From the IMG/VR virus record IMGVR_UViG_3300032046_000104, positions 1-36,392 of that record: DNA of 36,392 nt; one strand, written 5' to 3'. Origin of the DNA: a virus. Under the pieces are notes generated by a model, which had not been told where the DNA came from, did not search any database, and saw only the letters and a program-made list of their open reading frames with translations. Within the stretch, counting starts at the first letter, position 1; each line of letters begins with the position of its first letter. A program made the position numbers and the translations under genes. This document shows positions 6,951 to 35,831 of this stretch, in pieces.

Positions 6951-7745
6951 TTGGAACAAAACGCGCTGGCATATGAAATAATGAAAGCCGCCGTCAGTGG
7001 GGTCAGTAAGACACAGATTATCAAATACATAAAAGAAACTTATGATCAATCAGATGAACAAATAAGACAACTTCTGCGTCTCTGTAATTTTAAAAGCAAA
7101 CCAAAAACAATCAACTACAAAGCATTTGCTGACCGGCAATTCACCAGTGAAGCACGACGCCTTTATTTTCCCTTTACACAACTTTACATAGCAGATGATT
7201 TTCTAACAGCCGATGAATGCCAAGAATTAATTAAAGCTTCTGCTACTATTCTGCGCCCTTCAACAGTTGCAGATCCTGGCGACACAAAAGCAGTGACAAA
7301 GTATCGCACCAGTAAAACAGCAGATCTGCATTATTTTAATTCTCCTTTTTTGAATTACGTAGATAATAAAATTGCAGATTTTATGGGGCTTAATCCTTTC
7401 CTTGGGGAGACCATGCAAGCGCAAAAGTATGCTCCAGGGGAATACTATAAGGCGCATCACGATTACTTTTGCCCGTTATTAAGAGAATTTAAAACTTATA
7501 CCGAGTGGATGGGGCAACGCACTTGGACTTTTATGCTCTACTTAAATGATGTGGAAGAAGGTGGTGAAACTTTATTCAAGCACTTGAAGTTAAAGATTAA
7601 ACCTACTGCAGGCAAAGCTATTGTGTGGAACAACCTTTACAGTAATGGTATTCCAAACCCCAAAACAATGCACGAAGCGCTGCCACCCATTAGCGGTGAT
7701 AAGTACGTGGTCACCAAGTGGTGGCGAAGCTGGCCGTTAATTTAA
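6951..7745 (+). CDS. Prolyl 4-hydroxylase-type 2-oxoglutarate/Fe(II) oxygenase
   Basis: The 264-residue product has a helical N-terminal part (1-60) and a P4H catalytic domain (about 75-262). The iron ligands are H169-x-D171 in YKAHHDYF and H241 in TMHEALPP. K251, ten residues after the distal His, is placed to bind 2-oxoglutarate. YLNDVEEGGETLF and GKAIVWNN are the usual core strands, and the end is KWWRSWP. Enzymes of this family hydroxylate prolines or other residues using oxygen and 2-oxoglutarate; they are frequent in cyanophages with unknown targets. The start is TTG 6951, or ATG 6981 if shorter. It is an isolated + gene with its own promoter, ending 4 nt inside a convergent gene. Confidence 0.85.
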   Translation: MEQNALAYEIMKAAVSGVSKTQIIKYIKETYDQSDEQIRQLLRLCNFKSKPKTINYKAFADRQFTSEARRLYFPFTQLYIADDFLTADECQELIKASATILRPSTVADPGDTKAVTKYRTSKTADLHYFNSPFLNYVDNKIADFMGLNPFLGETMQAQKYAPGEYYKAHHDYFCPLLREFKTYTEWMGQRTWTFMLYLNDVEEGGETLFKHLKLKIKPTAGKAIVWNNLYSNGIPNPKTMHEALPPISGDKYVVTKWWRSWPLI

Positions 7746-9913: not shown

Positions 9914-9996
9914 GGGAGCATGGCGTAATTGGCAGCCGCATCAAATTTAAAATTTGATGGTCATTGACCGTGGGAGTTCGACCCTCCCTGCTCCCA
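9914..9996 (+). tRNA. tRNA-Leu (anticodon UAA)
   Basis: An 83-nt cloverleaf can be drawn. The acceptor stem is GGGAGCA pairing with TGCTCCC. The anticodon stem TCAAA/TTTGA encloses the loop TTTAAAA with anticodon TAA. The long variable arm GGTC-ATT-GACC is typical of class II leucine tRNAs. The T-arm is GGGAG-TTCGACC-CTCCC and the discriminator is A. The 3' CCA is not encoded. No group I intron interrupts the anticodon loop, unlike most cyanobacterial trnL-UAA genes. It is the only tRNA seen, on the + strand among - strand genes, and the first base after it is the stop codon of the convergent neighbour. Confidence 0.92.
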
Positions 9997-27519: not shown

Positions 27520-28662
27520 TCAGATGACAGTGAAAGCAGAGGTGATGAAGTCCTTGTTCAGGTTAGCAAAACCGGCGTACAGCTGCCAAATCAAGATGAT
27601 GAAGCGGCTGAAGTCGTCGTTGTTGTTGATTAGAACCTGAGCGTTAGGACCACCGATGCCTACGCCAACAGCCTGGGGACCAAAGAACAGGCCCGGAGGA
27701 GTTGTGTGAGAAACGGCGCCAGCACCATCACCAATATCAACGGTGATCGACTTGGCTGCGAAGTTGGTGGATTCGAAGAACCGCACACCTTCAAACACAA
27801 AGCCGGTAGGCATGACAGGTTCGCCAGCCACGAACTGAGCTTGGCCGTACTGACCGCCACCATAGATGGCGCCGCTAGGACCGGCAGCACCCATCAGGGG
27901 GTTGCCTTGACCCATGCCGGGATAACGAGCCACTTCGCGGAAGCCCTGGTCAGCACGGAGATCGCGCATGAAGGAGGGATCAGCGATACAACGGTAGTAA
28001 CCGTCTTGGAACACAGGTACGTTGCGCTTGCGCAGCTGACGAACCACTTCCAGAAGGTCGGTCTTAACGTTGAACTTGTAACGCTCGGAAGCGTACTCGG
28101 TAGCGGTATAAGAGGCCAGGGTGGTGGAGTTGGTGCGAGCTTTACCGTTGGGGTAGTAGTAACCACCTTGGGTATCGCCGGAAGCACCACGGGTCTCCGA
28201 TTTGGCCATCTCGTCCAGGAACACCCGATCGCGCCAACGACGATAGTCGTCGAGCAGCGTCAAAGAGCCGATGGACTGGTGGAACATATTAAGGTTCCCG
28301 GTGTCCAGCAGCAGACGCTGAGCGGTCATCAGGGTCTCACGAGCAATTTTGAAGGTGCTCGGGAGGTTGGAGTTGTTCGGGTCAGCAGGACCGGTGTACT
28401 CGCGGAGTGACACCAGCACTTTGTCCTTGACAATAGCCCGGCTGCTTGCGGTACCGATCGTTTGATCTTGTGTACGCTCGCGGCTGGTCTTCGTTCCAGG
28501 GTTGCCCCAGAAACGATAACGGTCAAGTTGAACGGTTTGACCAGGTTGCTTGGTAAAATCATGGACAACAACGGGTTCAGCCGCCATTTCCACGATGTAA
28601 GCCGGGTGGGGGCGATAAAGCTCCGCACCTAACAGCTTAGGAAAATCATTATCAATAAACAT
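27520..28662 (-). CDS. Major capsid protein, N4-gp56-like
   Basis: The 380-residue product has the features of the N4-gp56-type HK97-fold capsid family. An N-terminal VVHDFTKQPGQTVQLDRYRFWG is followed by a long helical region (about residues 100-200), then DGYYRCIADPSFMRDLRAD...FREVARY, which matches 'G.yv..ihP....dLr' in the family. It then has QFVAGEPVMPTGFVFEGVRFFES and a C-terminal GG/PGL segment. It has no obvious cleaved N-terminal delta domain. A perfect extended -10 promoter and a stable 5' hairpin lie just upstream, and the downstream gene shares the transcript. The call rests on several motifs and on gene order portal-scaffold-capsid. Confidence 0.75.
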   Translation of the reverse strand: MFIDNDFPKLLGAELYRPHPAYIVEMAAEPVVVHDFTKQPGQTVQLDRYRFWGNPGTKTSRERTQDQTIGTASSRAIVKDKVLVSLREYTGPADPNNSNLPSTFKIARETLMTAQRLLLDTGNLNMFHQSIGSLTLLDDYRRWRDRVFLDEMAKSETRGASGDTQGGYYYPNGKARTNSTTLASYTATEYASERYKFNVKTDLLEVVRQLRKRNVPVFQDGYYRCIADPSFMRDLRADQGFREVARYPGMGQGNPLMGAAGPSGAIYGGGQYGQAQFVAGEPVMPTGFVFEGVRFFESTNFAAKSITVDIGDGAGAVSHTTPPGLFFGPQAVGVGIGGPNAQVLINNNDDFSRFIILIWQLYAGFANLNKDFITSAFTVI

Positions 28663-30095: not shown

Positions 30096-31115
30096 TCACT
30101 CCATTACTAGGAGTTTCTGGCGGAACACGTCAGGGTTAGCTGAAGCTTGGTTCAGATAACGCCAGGCATTAGCGGGATCGCGATCGGCTAGTGAGCCGAA
30201 GCTTTCCCAGAAGGCGCCAGGGTTACCTTGCACTTGGGGCTGCGGGGGGAAGGGCATCTGAGGGCGCTCAGGGGCCATTCCAGTGGCTGCACCAGCAGGA
30301 CGAACAAACTGTTGCCCAACTTGCTGACCATACACAGGAGCGTCATCGGGGATAGGGTAGGGACCGTTATCACCAAAGAACTCACAAGTATAGTCCGCCA
30401 GGACATCCGGATTGGTCAGGATCGTTTCGTAAGCTTGATGCTCAACGGAAAGTTCCTGAAGAAGATTCACTGCTTGCACCAACTGAGCGTTGGTGTTGAT
30501 CAGTGAATCTTCAATGTTGCAGGCGTAGTTGTTGAGAACAGCAGGAGCATCGGCACCAAAGTAATCAATAACTTGCAGGCTGGCATCACTTACTCCGTTT
30601 GCGCGGAGCTGGTCTGCTGTTATTTCCTGCGAAGTTTGGGAATAACTGTTGGAGTAGGCCGGGTTGCTGTTGATCCCAGGCGAATAGGTCTGCGTCCCCT
30701 GGTTGCTGTACTGAGTTGGTACTCCCTGGGAATTGTAATTGGCCGGAACGGCTTGAGGCGTCGCGGTCGATTGTTGACCCTGGAATGGGAATTGGACGGG
30801 CGAACTCAGGAGCCCTACCAGGCTGTTGAACGCCGACTTGTACGGGTTGTCCGTTTGAGGGGCCTGTGGGGCTGCCTGGTAGGACTGGGGGTACGACGGA
30901 GTAGGGTTGTATTGGGGTTGTGGAACCCCCATCTGGGCCTGCATTTGCGGGGCTGGGGCCACCGCTGTTTGGTAGGGCGCCACCCACTGCGAAGTTGTTG
31001 CTACCGCCGGTGCCTGAGACGCCGTCTGCTGCATTACTGGAGCCGCGTAGCTGATCGGCTGGGTCTGAGATACTTGGGGTGCCGATTGGGTCGGCATTGC
31101 GGTATCGGCCTGCAT
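30096..31115 (-). CDS. Pro/Gln-rich scaffold-like protein overlapping the portal gene
   Basis: The 339-residue product has a Pro/Gln/Tyr-rich N-terminal half (residues 1-170). A structured, acidic C-terminal half follows (TADQLRANGVSDASLQVIDYFGADAP..., LVQAVNLLQELSVEHQAYE), which is helical. The order portal-this-capsid and the acidic helical end fit a head scaffold, but no family motif confirms it. The start is very well supported: AGAGGT lies 5 bases before ATG 31115. That start lies 530 nt inside the portal gene in another frame, so the disordered N-terminal half is coded on top of the portal's C-terminal extension. Confidence 0.6.
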   Translation of the reverse strand: MQADTAMPTQSAPQVSQTQPISYAAPVMQQTASQAPAVATTSQWVAPYQTAVAPAPQMQAQMGVPQPQYNPTPSYPQSYQAAPQAPQTDNPYKSAFNSLVGLLSSPVQFPFQGQQSTATPQAVPANYNSQGVPTQYSNQGTQTYSPGINSNPAYSNSYSQTSQEITADQLRANGVSDASLQVIDYFGADAPAVLNNYACNIEDSLINTNAQLVQAVNLLQELSVEHQAYETILTNPDVLADYTCEFFGDNGPYPIPDDAPVYGQQVGQQFVRPAGAATGMAPERPQMPFPPQPQVQGNPGAFWESFGSLADRDPANAWRYLNQASANPDVFRQKLLVME

Positions 31116-32847
31116 AGGTTACCTCTTTTTGTAGGCTTTCGAGAGTTCGGTAAAGGAAGGGGGTGAGATCAAGTCTCGGATCCGCAGCCATGGGTAGGTT
31201 GGGTTGCTGCGGATGGGGGGTCCTCATTTGTTGATTTACGAGATCAATAAATGTGGACATTGCCCTCTGTACTTCTCCCACCATCCGGAACGGGAAACCG
31301 CTGAGCATGCCAGCAACTTCGTCGTCCGTTTTTGAAGGGAACAAATACTTCAGTGCTTCTATGCTATCAACACCTAACTCCTGTAGGTTCCTAGTAAAGA
31401 TTGATTGATTAAGTTTGTCCTGAGTTGTATCTTCATAAACAGGACCCATCCAACGCCACTCTATAGTTCGATCTCCATCTGGGGCCAAACCCAAGACACC
31501 TGGTGGAATTGTTTTTGTCTCTACGGAATTATCAATTGCTTTTTGAAGTTTCTTTTCATACAAGCTTTTTTGCTTCTCGTATTTTGCTTCTTGCGCAGGA
31601 TCTTGAAGATCAACAGGAGGATCAGGGTATTTAATACCTGAAGCAAATGCCAAGGACTTACGGAAGATTTGCTCTTCCTGAAAAACCATCAGTTCAAGAC
31701 AACGACAAATACCATAAGTATAAAGTTGTAGGCACTTTTTCTTTGCAGTAGCACTGACACGTCCGTACGCTGATTTAATTTCAGTCGCAGTTACGTTAGT
31801 GATACTTAGGTCATCGATGCCTCCAAGGGCAAGCCGGATCTCACTACGAAGCTGTTCTGCGTAACGCGCTTGGTCAGCACTGACAGCGTTGGGCGTAATA
31901 AATCCAACACGATCGGTTGGCTCCAGGTTAGCGATGACCCTGGGGACGCGCAGGCCTGAACCAGGCTTTCCGTAGTAGCCAGGCTTGCGGCGGCTTTCGT
32001 TGTCCGATTTAAATGTGGAGGCGGACAGGCTGAACTCAGATTGGAAACCTGATTGGCTGGAAATACTGGGGCGCTGGTCGGTTTCGCTGCCAACTGCTTC
32101 AGTGATGTCCGCCTTGGGACGAGACGACAGCAGCGTAGGGTTTCCAAAGAATGAAAGGTTTGCTCGGATGTTTTTAACCATCTCATCATGAGCGATGATC
32201 TGGTTGGAAAGCCACTCAAACTCTCCGTGCCCCTCAGTACCAAAGGCGTCGGGATTATTGAAAACTTCTACGCATGGGATAAACTCCATGCTGTTGACAG
32301 TTCTGGTGGTGTTGTTTAAGTTTGCAAACTCCACAGGGCTGTCAAACGACATTTCCTGTTCGCTGTGGCACTCTTCAATTTCTGTTGCAGTAATCCGCAA
32401 CCGCATGTAACGCTTATCAGTTGAGAGACCAATGCCACCAAAGCCCCTGCTAGATTTGACCTTATATGAATAAATAATAATTACTTCTTCTAATTCGCCA
32501 TCTGGTGAGTAATAAGTTCTATAAGCATCTTTGTCAAACCAATACAATCTATACGTTTTCTTTGTTGGTCGAATATAAAAAAGACCCTTACCATAGGCCA
32601 AGAAGCGATCCCACATTGAATCGAGGCGGGCGTCCAGCTTGTTGAACTTGATTACTTGCTGAATAAAATCAAACCGTTGCGTGCCAAAGTTATCTTGATT
32701 TGGATAAAACTCAACGCCTTGCCTAATGCCAAACATGCGCATTTGCGCAAGGTGCGCATTAATGAGCATGGTATCCGCACTGCCGTTTGAGTCGCGCTCA
32801 ACAACAGATTTTAAAATGTCGTCAAGAATAGATTTGTTTTCGGACAT
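30586..32847 (-). CDS. Portal protein with overlapping C-terminal extension
   Basis: The 753-residue product has a portal-type layout. It has an early helical region, WDRFLAYGKGLFYIRPT, YWFDKDAYRTYYSP, then ISSQSGFQSEFSLSAS and IRLALGGIDDLS..TATEIKSAYGRVSATAKKK, followed by helices (QEAKYEKQKSLYEKKLQKAI) and EWRWMGPVYEDTTQDKL. It forms the ring through which DNA enters the head. The conserved core seems to end near residue 575. The remaining 176 residues are a Gly/Pro/Ser-rich tail ending RKRSK, coded in a different frame over the scaffold candidate. The start ATG follows the AbrB-like gene by 23 nt. The tail could be real or a chance open frame. Confidence 0.85.
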   Translation of the reverse strand: MSENKSILDDILKSVVERDSNGSADTMLINAHLAQMRMFGIRQGVEFYPNQDNFGTQRFDFIQQVIKFNKLDARLDSMWDRFLAYGKGLFYIRPTKKTYRLYWFDKDAYRTYYSPDGELEEVIIIYSYKVKSSRGFGGIGLSTDKRYMRLRITATEIEECHSEQEMSFDSPVEFANLNNTTRTVNSMEFIPCVEVFNNPDAFGTEGHGEFEWLSNQIIAHDEMVKNIRANLSFFGNPTLLSSRPKADITEAVGSETDQRPSISSQSGFQSEFSLSASTFKSDNESRRKPGYYGKPGSGLRVPRVIANLEPTDRVGFITPNAVSADQARYAEQLRSEIRLALGGIDDLSITNVTATEIKSAYGRVSATAKKKCLQLYTYGICRCLELMVFQEEQIFRKSLAFASGIKYPDPPVDLQDPAQEAKYEKQKSLYEKKLQKAIDNSVETKTIPPGVLGLAPDGDRTIEWRWMGPVYEDTTQDKLNQSIFTRNLQELGVDSIEALKYLFPSKTDDEVAGMLSGFPFRMVGEVQRAMSTFIDLVNQQMRTPHPQQPNLPMAADPRLDLTPFLYRTLESLQKEVTYAGRYRNADPIGTPSISDPADQLRGSSNAADGVSGTGGSNNFAVGGALPNSGGPSPANAGPDGGSTTPIQPYSVVPPVLPGSPTGPSNGQPVQVGVQQPGRAPEFARPIPIPGSTIDRDASSRSGQLQFPGSTNSVQQPGDADLFAWDQQQPGLLQQLFPNFAGNNSRPAPRKRSK

Positions 32848-32870: not shown

Positions 32871-33053
32871 TTATGCCTCAATATCGTATCCGGCGTGCAA
32901 CCTTTTTAGGGTAATCACATCATCTTCAACTTCGACATCAAATCGTTCGCCAGGGCTAAGCCCCATGTCGTGACACAACTCATCGGGGAGCGGAACAACA
33001 GCAGAACCGTAGGCGTCCTGGTCCAGTTCAATAATGTAATAGCCGGTAGACAT
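32871..33053 (-). CDS. AbrB/MazE-like small protein, no partner toxin
   Basis: The 60-residue product has the AbrB/SpoVT/MazE swapped-hairpin signature at residues 17-52: AVVPLPDELCHDMGLSPGERFDVEVEDDVITLKRL. This matches the family pattern of a short basic strand, 'lP..l...lgl..Gd...v...dg.i.l', which makes a DNA-binding dimer in antitoxins and transition regulators. It lies between terminase and portal genes, a very unusual place, without any MazF/PemK toxin nearby. It could repress phage or host genes or neutralise a host toxin; both are inference. The start lacks a clear Shine-Dalgarno. Confidence 0.7.
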   Translation of the reverse strand: MSTGYYIIELDQDAYGSAVVPLPDELCHDMGLSPGERFDVEVEDDVITLKRLHAGYDIEA

Positions 33054-33113: not shown

Positions 33114-34637
33114 TCAATATTCGAGCTCAAGTTTCCCCCTGGTCATCAATCCGTTGCAGAGCCAAATTAACGCGTCGACGCAGTCGTCGTGTGAGCTGAC
33201 GCCAAAGTTAATGATCTCATCAGTCAACGCCTGGAACTTGCGATACTTGTTAAAAGTAATTTTGCGCTGCTCAAACAATCCCATGATGCCTCTAAAGCGT
33301 GCAACCTTGTCACCACGGAATCCTTTGACCGCATGCCAGTTAATGTTGTAAAGCCCGTGCTCTCCCAAGCAGATCCGTTTAAAGTCAGCTTCAAGGGACG
33401 CTTGGTATGCCACAGCTTCTGACCACACGTCAATAGTGCTGCCAGTGGGGAAATATTGGTTTCCATCTTTGTGTGCAATTCCCCACTCATAACACATCTC
33501 CATAAGAGACTCCAGCTTCTCTAAGTTACCCATAACGCGGATCCGCTTGCAATCTATGATGTGAATCTTGCTGCCGATCCTGCCGCCAAGCACTATGGCT
33601 GTGTAGTCATTACGTTCTCTTATACCAGCGGAGAGGTCAATGCCGATCCCCAAAGCATCAAACTCCGTGGAGATTTGGCCTTTAACAATCAGCTCAGGGG
33701 AAAGGGAAAGCTCGCTGGTTTGTGCAATTTGATTTTGATACTGAAAACTAAAACTGATAGGTGCTTGACGGCGGCGATCGCTAAGATACTCCAGAGACCA
33801 CATGTTAGGCCAGTAAGAAACTTCGTCTCCGTTAGCATCAACAGTGATTGCGGATTGAACGATTTGAACCCAGTCATTTTGTGGTGTGAAGGTGGTGCTG
33901 TGAATGTCGTCGTGTCTGAACCGAGTGCCAAGGCAGATGGCTCTTCCACCCTCAAACATAGTAGGAACAATAACGGAGTTCCAGTTGTCCTCCATCATCT
34001 GTCGGATGTCTTTATTTTTAATGTCGTCGCTCGACTTAATACAGTCGTCGATTATACATAAGTGGCTTCGTTTTGAGGTCACGGCGCCTTTGAGGCCGGC
34101 GCAACAAACTGTAAACTCTTCTTCACCAGTAGACCTGATGCCTGCAAACTTCCAATCAATACTCCAGTATTCGTTGGAGTTAATCCCTTTGGCAATTTTT
34201 ACCATAGGGAAAATTTCTCGATACGTTTTACTTTCTTCGATGATGCGCTTGATGGCTGCACTCTTAGGCCGAGCAACATCAACCGTGTAGGAAATGTAAA
34301 GAATCTTTAAGGGTTTTTTGTGGAAGGCGTGAACGCCAATTGCCCAAGCTGTATATAAACCTAAAACTGTACTTTTTGCACTACCCCTGGGAGCAAGGAT
34401 GTCAATGTTGGGACCACCGATAGCAATCAAGCACTCAGTATTATCGCCAGTACAAAGGTAGCGGTGCCATTGCTTATGGTGTTCTGCTGGCGGTTTATCT
34501 CCTACTACGTCACAAAAGTATGCAAAATCTGTACGCGCCCGTTCAGTGTCAATGTTAGAAGTTTTTTTAACAACTTGTTGTTTAGCTGCTGCACGCGCAG
34601 TTCTGCGATGAACACTATAAAGACTTGTGCCAGCCAA
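33114..34637 (-). CDS. terL: Terminase large subunit
   Basis: The 507-residue product is a phage DNA-packaging motor. The ATPase has Walker A PRGSAKST (83-90), Walker B LCIIDD (193-198), and a coupling motif CLGTRFRHDD (235-244). The nuclease half has acidic residues at D334 (GIGIDLSAG), around 403-408 (DVWSEAVAY) and DD484-485 plus D488 (SSHDDCVDALIWL), in the order expected for the RNase H-like fold. It cuts concatemers and pumps DNA into the head with ATP. The start is TTG 34637 with GAGG 6 bases upstream. The last acidic residues of the Walker B are DD rather than DE. It is followed by the AbrB-like gene and the portal gene. Confidence 0.93.
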   Translation of the reverse strand: MAGTSLYSVHRRTARAAAKQQVVKKTSNIDTERARTDFAYFCDVVGDKPPAEHHKQWHRYLCTGDNTECLIAIGGPNIDILAPRGSAKSTVLGLYTAWAIGVHAFHKKPLKILYISYTVDVARPKSAAIKRIIEESKTYREIFPMVKIAKGINSNEYWSIDWKFAGIRSTGEEEFTVCCAGLKGAVTSKRSHLCIIDDCIKSSDDIKNKDIRQMMEDNWNSVIVPTMFEGGRAICLGTRFRHDDIHSTTFTPQNDWVQIVQSAITVDANGDEVSYWPNMWSLEYLSDRRRQAPISFSFQYQNQIAQTSELSLSPELIVKGQISTEFDALGIGIDLSAGIRERNDYTAIVLGGRIGSKIHIIDCKRIRVMGNLEKLESLMEMCYEWGIAHKDGNQYFPTGSTIDVWSEAVAYQASLEADFKRICLGEHGLYNINWHAVKGFRGDKVARFRGIMGLFEQRKITFNKYRKFQALTDEIINFGVSSHDDCVDALIWLCNGLMTRGKLELEY

Positions 34638-34677: not shown

Positions 34678-35163
34678 TTATGATTCTTCTTGCAGAATTT
34701 TTGTCCATACTGCCATGGACGCTTCTTCTAAGGGGCCTTCAATAGGATCATCACGGAAGATCAAAAGCATCTCACGCAACGCACGATCGGCGCCAGCGAG
34801 GATCAGACCTTGCTTGTCGGTGAGGTGTTTTTCGTCGTTAAGTTGCTTGATGGTGCCACGCAGTTCTTTTTGGAGCATGGCGATCCTGGAGGCCCCCATG
34901 TCTTGCTTGATCATGCCAAGATCAATTGCTTCCCTAAGCTTTGCAATATCCTGCTGCATGGAGTCAATTTCCATCTCCATGATTCCATTGAAGTTTCTCT
35001 TCTTAAATTCTTTTACAGCCCATTCACTGCACTCCACGATGCTGCCTGTAAACCCGAGAAATCGGGAGTACAGATACATCTGTATGGGTGAAGAGATTTG
35101 CTTGCAAAAAGAAAGAAAGGATTCGCGGTCTTTTTCAGTTAAAGACTGGAGCCAGTCAATCAT
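34678..35163 (-). CDS. Small terminase subunit candidate
   Basis: The 161-residue product is helical throughout, with several hydrophobic-charged repeats (IDSMQQDIAKLREAIDLGMIKQ, ASRIAMLQKELRGTIKQLNDEKHL). It has an N-terminal part (TEKDRESFLSFCKQISSPIQ) that could be a DNA-binding helical bundle. It lies 40 nt upstream of the terminase large subunit gene and overlaps the repeat-protein gene by 4 nt. That position, size and composition fit a TerS, which recognises the packaging start, but no family motif is confirmed. TerS sequences are often poorly conserved. Confidence 0.55.
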   Translation of the reverse strand: MIDWLQSLTEKDRESFLSFCKQISSPIQMYLYSRFLGFTGSIVECSEWAVKEFKKRNFNGIMEMEIDSMQQDIAKLREAIDLGMIKQDMGASRIAMLQKELRGTIKQLNDEKHLTDKQGLILAGADRALREMLLIFRDDPIEGPLEEASMAVWTKILQEES

Positions 35164-35831
35164 GCACGATAAGAGCCTTGCGCCCAGTTACGGTTCCTGT
35201 TGGCAGCATAGTTCTCTTGCATGATTTTCTGCAAGTCGGTTTTCCGCGTTTCTTCGCCGGCAGTTTGCGTACCGCGACGTTGCTCTTCGCCGGTTACTCG
35301 CGTACCAAGCCGTTGTTGTTCACCTTCAGTTACCGTACCGAGACGTTGCTGTTCACCAGCGGTTACTGTGCCTAACCGTGATTCCTCACCGGTTACTCGC
35401 GTACCAAGCCGTGATTCCTCACCGGTTACTCGCGTACCAAGCCGTTGTTGTTCACCTTCAGTAATCATACCGCGACGTTGCTCTTCACCAGCTACTCGCG
35501 TACCAAGCCGTGATTCCTCACCGGTTACTCGCGTACCAAGCCGTTGTTGTTCACCTTCAGTTACCGTACCGAGACGTTGCTGTTCACCTTGCGTTGCAAT
35601 GGTGGCACGGGTTTCACCACCAACAGCTTGTGTCTGGCGCATGTCCTGCGTGGTGAAGAACGCCTTGTTCTGCTGGTCCAGCTGCGACCCAAGGGTCATG
35701 TTGAGCCGGGATTGTGCACCGCTGACTTCATTTAACGCAGTTTGAGACTCCAGGGACTGAGTAGGCTGCTGCGTTACCGTGGGGGCCGGCGGCGGCGGGG
35801 GGTAAGTGACAGAGGGTGAACTACCTCCCAT
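35160..35831 (-). CDS. Hendecad-repeat protein upstream of terminase
   Basis: The 223-residue product has a proline-rich start (MGGSSPSVTYPPPPPAP), a Gln/Ser helix (residues 25-70), and then ten near-perfect 11-residue repeats (residues 82-191). The consensus is GE(Q/E)(Q/S)RLGT(R/V)(V/T)(T/E/A), with two weaker copies on either side. An 11-residue period is the hallmark of right-handed, nearly straight coiled coils, so this may be a long rod or tail spike shaft, or a particle-internal fibre. It is upstream of and overlaps the TerS candidate by 4 nt. An extended -10 precedes it. The start ATG has GAGG at 10 nt. Confidence 0.65.
   Translation of the reverse strand: MGGSSPSVTYPPPPPAPTVTQQPTQSLESQTALNEVSGAQSRLNMTLGSQLDQQNKAFFTTQDMRQTQAVGGETRATIATQGEQQRLGTVTEGEQQRLGTRVTGEESRLGTRVAGEEQRRGMITEGEQQRLGTRVTGEESRLGTRVTGEESRLGTVTAGEQQRLGTVTEGEQQRLGTRVTGEEQRRGTQTAGEETRKTDLQKIMQENYAANRNRNWAQGSYRA
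35226..35621. repeat. Twelve 33-bp tandem repeats
   Basis: The array codes for the 11-residue repeat, with ten very similar units (35259-35588) and one weaker copy at each end. Units differ by a few bases, mostly in two alternating types (QQRLGT and ESRLGT), so the array probably grew by unit and two-unit duplications. Copy number may vary between related phages. Confidence 0.9.

Follow-up and report, generated by a model that had tools for sequence, protein, structure and literature searches.

A conserved out-of-frame overlap between the portal gene and a probable scaffold gene in a family of cyanobacterial phages

Our analysis of a 36,392-nt stretch of viral DNA (here called the window; record IMGVR_UViG_3300032046_000104 of IMG/VR, a 36 kb virus record which is possibly a fragment) revealed a 530-nt overlap of two genes that is very probably a genuine dual-coding region, in which the tail of the portal protein and the N-terminal half of the next, internally initiated head-assembly protein are encoded together. 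The portal gene (30586-32847, minus strand) is an ORF of 753 aa and the second gene (30096-31115, minus strand), which encodes a probable scaffold (capsid-assembly) protein, is an ORF of 339 aa; they share positions 30586-31115 of the minus strand, where codons of the second gene begin at the second position of portal codons. Both frames are open and conserved, and purifying selection acts on both in two clades of relatives; the start site and Shine-Dalgarno (SD) sequence of the second gene are conserved as well. The preliminary description of this DNA had reported an out-of-frame overlap of low-complexity segments with both frames open, and its coordinates and frame statement proved exact. 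Residues ~1-577 of the portal form the non-overlapped core, and residues ~578-753, encoded in the overlap, form a Gly/Pro/Ser-rich tail (G 17%, P 16%, S 11%). In the second protein, residues 1-176 are encoded in the overlap and the C-terminal half lies outside it; its head, which starts with MQADTAMPTQSAPQ..., is rich in Gln, Ala, Pro and Ser. The ATG lies at 31115, and the SD sequence AGAGGT that had been noted ahead of it was found at 31126-31121, inside the portal gene.

The overlap is shared by all relatives that we could collect. For viral contigs, the queries were the second protein, three portals (that of the window, that of the isolate Synechococcus phage S-EIV1 (KJ410740) and a divergent one) and a stretch of portal-core DNA; genome contigs were searched too. 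An ATG at the same place and in the same frame, with an overlap of 497-641 nt, was present in every one of the 291 loci that could be scored in a first census and in 158 of the 159 in a second; together the censuses hold 275 distinct overlap sequences, some contigs being present more than once and related sequences inflating the locus counts, and because each search covered the best 80 matches, more distant relatives without the overlap may exist. Loci were picked by patterns in the portal core, or by the DNA block taken from it, rather than by the tail, with the same outcome. In the one exception (L303), the portal appears to be shifted by a single base shortly ahead of the overlap, with both proteins intact past the shift; this is probably an assembly error. 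The relatives fall into two clades, W, which includes the window, and E, which includes S-EIV1, with 55-62% nucleotide identity between them. S-EIV1 itself has a 554-nt overlap with the same start position and a strong SD sequence (AAGGAG). Its portal is 52% identical to that of the window over 95% of the length (about 52-54%), and its second protein is 48% identical over 74%. The window thus shares with S-EIV1-like phages both a homologous portal gene and its overlap by the same downstream gene.

In annotated prokaryote genomes, apparent long co-directional overlaps are usually caused by frameshifts or mispredicted starts, and a survey of 338 such genomes found no real co-directional overlap of more than 60 bp (PMC2478687). 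In the window, one fused portal-scaffold gene might be split by a frameshift at about 31.1 kb that arose in sequencing or assembly, and the preliminary description had asked for this check. We give this explanation next to no chance. The arrangement is identical in hundreds of independent contigs and in one isolate genome, which rules out a sequencing error or a fused gene, and the substitution patterns are those of dual coding and not of a single shifted frame. Moreover, 6 nt ahead of the ATG the frame of the second gene is closed by a stop codon (31119-31121, minus strand, in the window) in 149 of 150 non-redundant relatives, TAA in clade W and TGA in clade E. Likewise, none of the relatives found has a portal stop ahead of the start of the second gene, an arrangement that would have spoken against the overlap.

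Could the second frame be open by chance? When the portal codons of the window alone were re-drawn synonymously, the second frame stayed open in 9-27% of the trials, so the single sequence is not decisive by this approach. Shuffling the order of the portal codons left it open in 0 of 2000 trials, and with the second protein held fixed the portal frame was open in 0 of 1000, the chance expectation being ~7-11 stops, with about nine in the window. It is the conservation in relatives that settles the reality of the overlap: both frames are open in 150 of 150 non-redundant relatives, the third forward frame is never open, and the antisense frame that is open most often is so in 18. Since 18 is the maximum for any antisense frame, we judge an antisense ORF at 30573-31166 (plus strand) to be coincidental.

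Substitution patterns within the overlap were analysed with our own simplified form of an OLGenie-type dN/dS estimator. For the scaffold frame, dNN/dNS was 0.12 (0.07-0.18) and 0.09 (0.05-0.14) in the two clades, and for the portal frame dNN/dSN was 0.17 (0.11-0.26) and 0.20 (0.11-0.32). Mutually exclusive nearest pairs gave similar values (0.16/0.17 for the portal, 0.09/0.08 for the scaffold), and neither estimate reached 1 in any third of the overlap; in the last third the constraint on the portal frame is weaker, at 0.23 (0.06-0.73) and 0.31 (0.11-0.66). The same hypothetical second frame laid over the portal core yielded 0.78-3.64 as a control. Because the ratios are low in both frames and not in the control frame, both frames code for proteins under selection from one end of the overlap to the other. 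The synonymous-site comparison suggested in the preliminary description agrees with this conclusion: at four-fold sites whose codon prefix is conserved, the synonymous diversity of the portal drops 4-6 fold inside the overlap, from 0.59 in the core to 0.14 in clade W and from 0.51 to 0.09 in clade E (rank test p ~1e-19 and ~1e-20, for columns which are not fully independent). The part of the second gene outside the overlap has normal synonymous diversity, and the second protein is conserved at the protein level in 46 sequences. Conserved motifs are present in both proteins. A negative correlation between the conserved segments of the two frames, as expected if these were segregated, was not found, and codon usage did not discriminate which frame is older.

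These data bear on two readings in which only one of the frames is real. If this were the portal frame, the second gene would begin past the portal stop and the open frame upstream would be a by-product of composition, as the synonymous re-draws of the window would allow and as the short form in the GenBank annotation of S-EIV1 would have it. We consider this extremely unlikely, given a second frame that is open in every non-redundant relative and has ratios of 0.08-0.12 with upper bounds to 0.18, a conserved start and SD sequence, and a third-position diversity that falls further at the ATG region. If only the second frame were real, the portal would end near residue 585 and its tail would be a meaningless extension. 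Here the low complexity of the tail and the relaxed constraint on the portal frame, 0.16-0.20 in the overlap versus 0.01-0.05 in the core, could be taken in favour. However, a portal stop at this place does not occur among the relatives found, the portal ratios are far under 1 with confidence intervals that exclude it, the stops expected by chance are absent, and the C-terminal motifs of the portal are conserved as far as S-EIV1, which makes this reading very unlikely, too. Dual coding is thus the reading that we retain, and it has a consequence for the isolate: the GenBank record of S-EIV1 annotates the second gene only as a 134-codon CDS (59863-60264) past the portal stop, and the gene (KJ410740.1 59287-60264; L082 10736-11713) should begin at 59287, ~190 codons further upstream.

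How is the second protein made? Its SD sequence is carried by the Lys-Glu codons of the portal ahead of the ATG, and the combinations AAA-GAG, AAG-GAG and AAG-GAA all retain it. The only combination that loses it, AAA-GAA, occurs in none of the 291 loci of the first census. This pattern is supportive but not conclusive, because the seven AAG-GAA cases in that census come from few lineages. The predicted unpaired fraction of the SD region is 0.61 versus 0.41-0.45 at control positions. A site that is accessible and an SD sequence that is kept by several synonymous solutions point to independent, internal initiation as the simplest reading, while translational coupling to the portal is possible. 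The preliminary description had proposed that the overlap ties the two proteins together in evolution and in dosage. The first tie is borne out by the selection on both frames; the second is not, since a conserved and accessible SD sequence of its own speaks for independent initiation. Two terminator-like hairpins lie 3′ of the second gene (30095-30075 and 30012-29989, minus strand). A scan of the region found six hairpins with 5.4 expected in shuffled sequences, and their location right behind the ORF is what they have as added support.

Unexpectedly, synonymous constraint is not confined to the overlap. In the ~86 portal codons just before the second ATG (31116-31377, minus strand), synonymous diversity is about halved in both clades, with ~0.24-0.29 at position 3 compared with ~0.5 in the core, before it falls further from the ATG region onward. 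The far end of this candidate cis-regulatory stretch holds a 26-nt block, GGTGTTGATAGCATWGAAGCACTGAA (31349-31374, minus strand), which is nearly invariant in both clades, synonymous sites included. Within it, GTTGATAG begins 256 nt before the ATG, and the block lies at exactly this distance in all 131 loci where it was found. A third ORF as the cause of the constraint was ruled out by stops in every alternative frame. The next best match to the block in the window is 17/26, the same as in shuffled sequence, and a recurring promoter of a phage RNA polymerase was ruled out by its single occurrence. A TTGATA hexamer is present, but we rejected a sigma-70 promoter because there is no consistent -10 hexamer across the clades; a consensus promoter scan listed no site at the block. 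Likewise, we found no convincing conserved RNA fold upstream of the second gene (low RNAalifold energies with a positive covariation term), and an Rfam scan returned one sub-threshold match at chance level elsewhere. The stretch and its block may serve as a control element inside the portal gene, an appealing idea but an unproven one.

The assignment of the 30586-32847 product as a portal protein, already made in the preliminary description, is supported by several lines of evidence. The window protein matches phrog_20475 (E=4.6e-208) and the portal family phrog_64 (E=4.3e-05). Among the portals of 35 relatives, 13 matched phrog_64 and 8 phrog_104, and Pfam SPP1_portal was matched weakly in three. 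In a Foldseek search with the portal model, which is poor (pLDDT 41), the first 32 PDB matches were phage portal or portal/tail-complex entries. Finally, the large terminase gene (33114-34637, phrog_38, E=6.8e-78) is separated from the portal gene by just one 60-aa ORF. This small ORF (32871-33053, minus strand) matches phrog_661 (E=1.9e-09) and its product has weak similarity to MazE-type antitoxins in Pfam, below the cut-off.

The second protein is probably a scaffold, an assignment suggested by its position and by its low-confidence predicted architecture. Its gene sits between those for the portal and the major capsid protein (the latter at 27520-28662, phrog_1357, E=6.4e-17) and lies directly 3′ of the portal gene, as do the corresponding genes in T7 and P-SSP7. 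The AlphaFold model (pLDDT 50) predicts disorder for residues 1-176 apart from one helix at 91-104, and helices at 167-246 and 299-336; after a low-confidence N-terminal half with a short helix come a long helix and, towards the C-terminus, three more. A long helix with short C-terminal helices after a low-confidence half corresponds to the general plan of known phage scaffolds. Because the AlphaFold models of both the second protein and the portal are poor, their disorder and folds are taken as indications. The overlap could also be real with a second protein that is something else, such as a minor protein of the virion or one associated with the portal, and we regard this as possible, if rather unlikely. 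Consistent with it, the protein had no family match in PHROG or Pfam and no detectable sequence similarity to gp9 of T7 or P-SSP7, and three small ORFs separate its gene from the major capsid gene. PDB sequence searches gave nothing useful, and Foldseek returned a good match to one 133-aa viral protein alone, which has the size of the annotated S-EIV1 CDS. Hence position and predicted architecture make the scaffold assignment of the preliminary description plausible, and sequence similarity adds nothing to it.

Taking these observations together, we propose that one frame would encode the C-terminal tail of the portal, flexible and rich in Gly, Pro and Ser, and the other the N-terminal half of the head-assembly protein that follows, likewise flexible and rich in Gln, Ala, Pro and Ser. 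This second protein, most probably the scaffold, would be made by internal initiation at the ATG with its own SD sequence; its message would probably be the late mRNA that also carries the portal, with a possible further contribution from an element within the portal gene. Judging from the models, both overlapped segments may be disordered, which may be what makes overprinting tolerable. Each could carry short conserved binding motifs, with QPGDADLYAWDQQQPGLLQQLFPN in the portal and NPYKEAFNKVVGLLSSPVQFPFQGQQ in the scaffold as candidates, and the upstream constrained stretch may help to set the level of the second protein. A more far-reaching version would see here an ancient dual-coding module, fixed in a whole phage lineage, whose overprinted disordered segments co-evolve as interaction partners and in which the element at -256 and the constrained stretch set scaffold output in place of a T7-style intergenic promoter. 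This version we hold to be quite doubtful.

Long out-of-frame overlaps in tailed phages are known from the spanins Rz/Rz1 of lambda and the overlapped spanins of P2, which are often missed by gene callers (PMC6139136), and the median length of viral overlaps of the frame type described here is 14 nt (PMC8903798). As in our case, the spanins combine same-strand out-of-frame dual coding with partners in one process and a second start inside the first gene. However, they are lysis and not head genes, and they occur in embedded, overlapped and separated forms among phages, whereas every relative found here has the overlapped form. In T7, gene 8 (portal) is followed by gene 9 (scaffold) in the same order as here, but with a gap that holds the promoter phi9 instead of a ~530 nt overlap; as the two genes here leave no gap, any promoter would lie inside the portal gene. 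The cyanobacterial phage P-SSP7 also has gp8 (portal) followed by gp9 (capsid-assembly), with an overlap of only 1 nt and with a gp9 that has no detected similarity to the second protein. In lambda, the head-assembly scaffold Nu3 arises by internal initiation inside the head gene C; unlike here, it is in frame and therefore shares sequence with the product of C. A literature search, whose coverage was incomplete, found no report of a portal-scaffold overlap, and head genes of large tailed phages are not usually arranged like this. Head assembly thus joins lysis as a site of long out-of-frame overlaps in tailed phages, with hundreds of contigs of a widespread cyanobacterial phage family preserving two frames over ~530 nt. 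Simple genome compression is a weak reason for this, since the genome of S-EIV1 is 79 kb. The annotation of this isolate missed nearly 200 codons of the probable scaffold, and the phage offers a system for testing why such overlaps persist.

Elsewhere in the window, a tRNA-Leu gene (anticodon taa) lies at 9914-9996 on the plus strand. A 264-aa ORF at 6951-7745 (plus strand) matches phrog_61 (2OG-Fe(II) oxygenase) and, more weakly and over about the same residues, endonuclease families. A 223-aa ORF at 35160-35831 (minus strand) consists of repeats with periods of 33, 66 and 99 nt, with an array at 35251-35588, and encodes units such as TEGEQQRLGTRVTGEESRLG.
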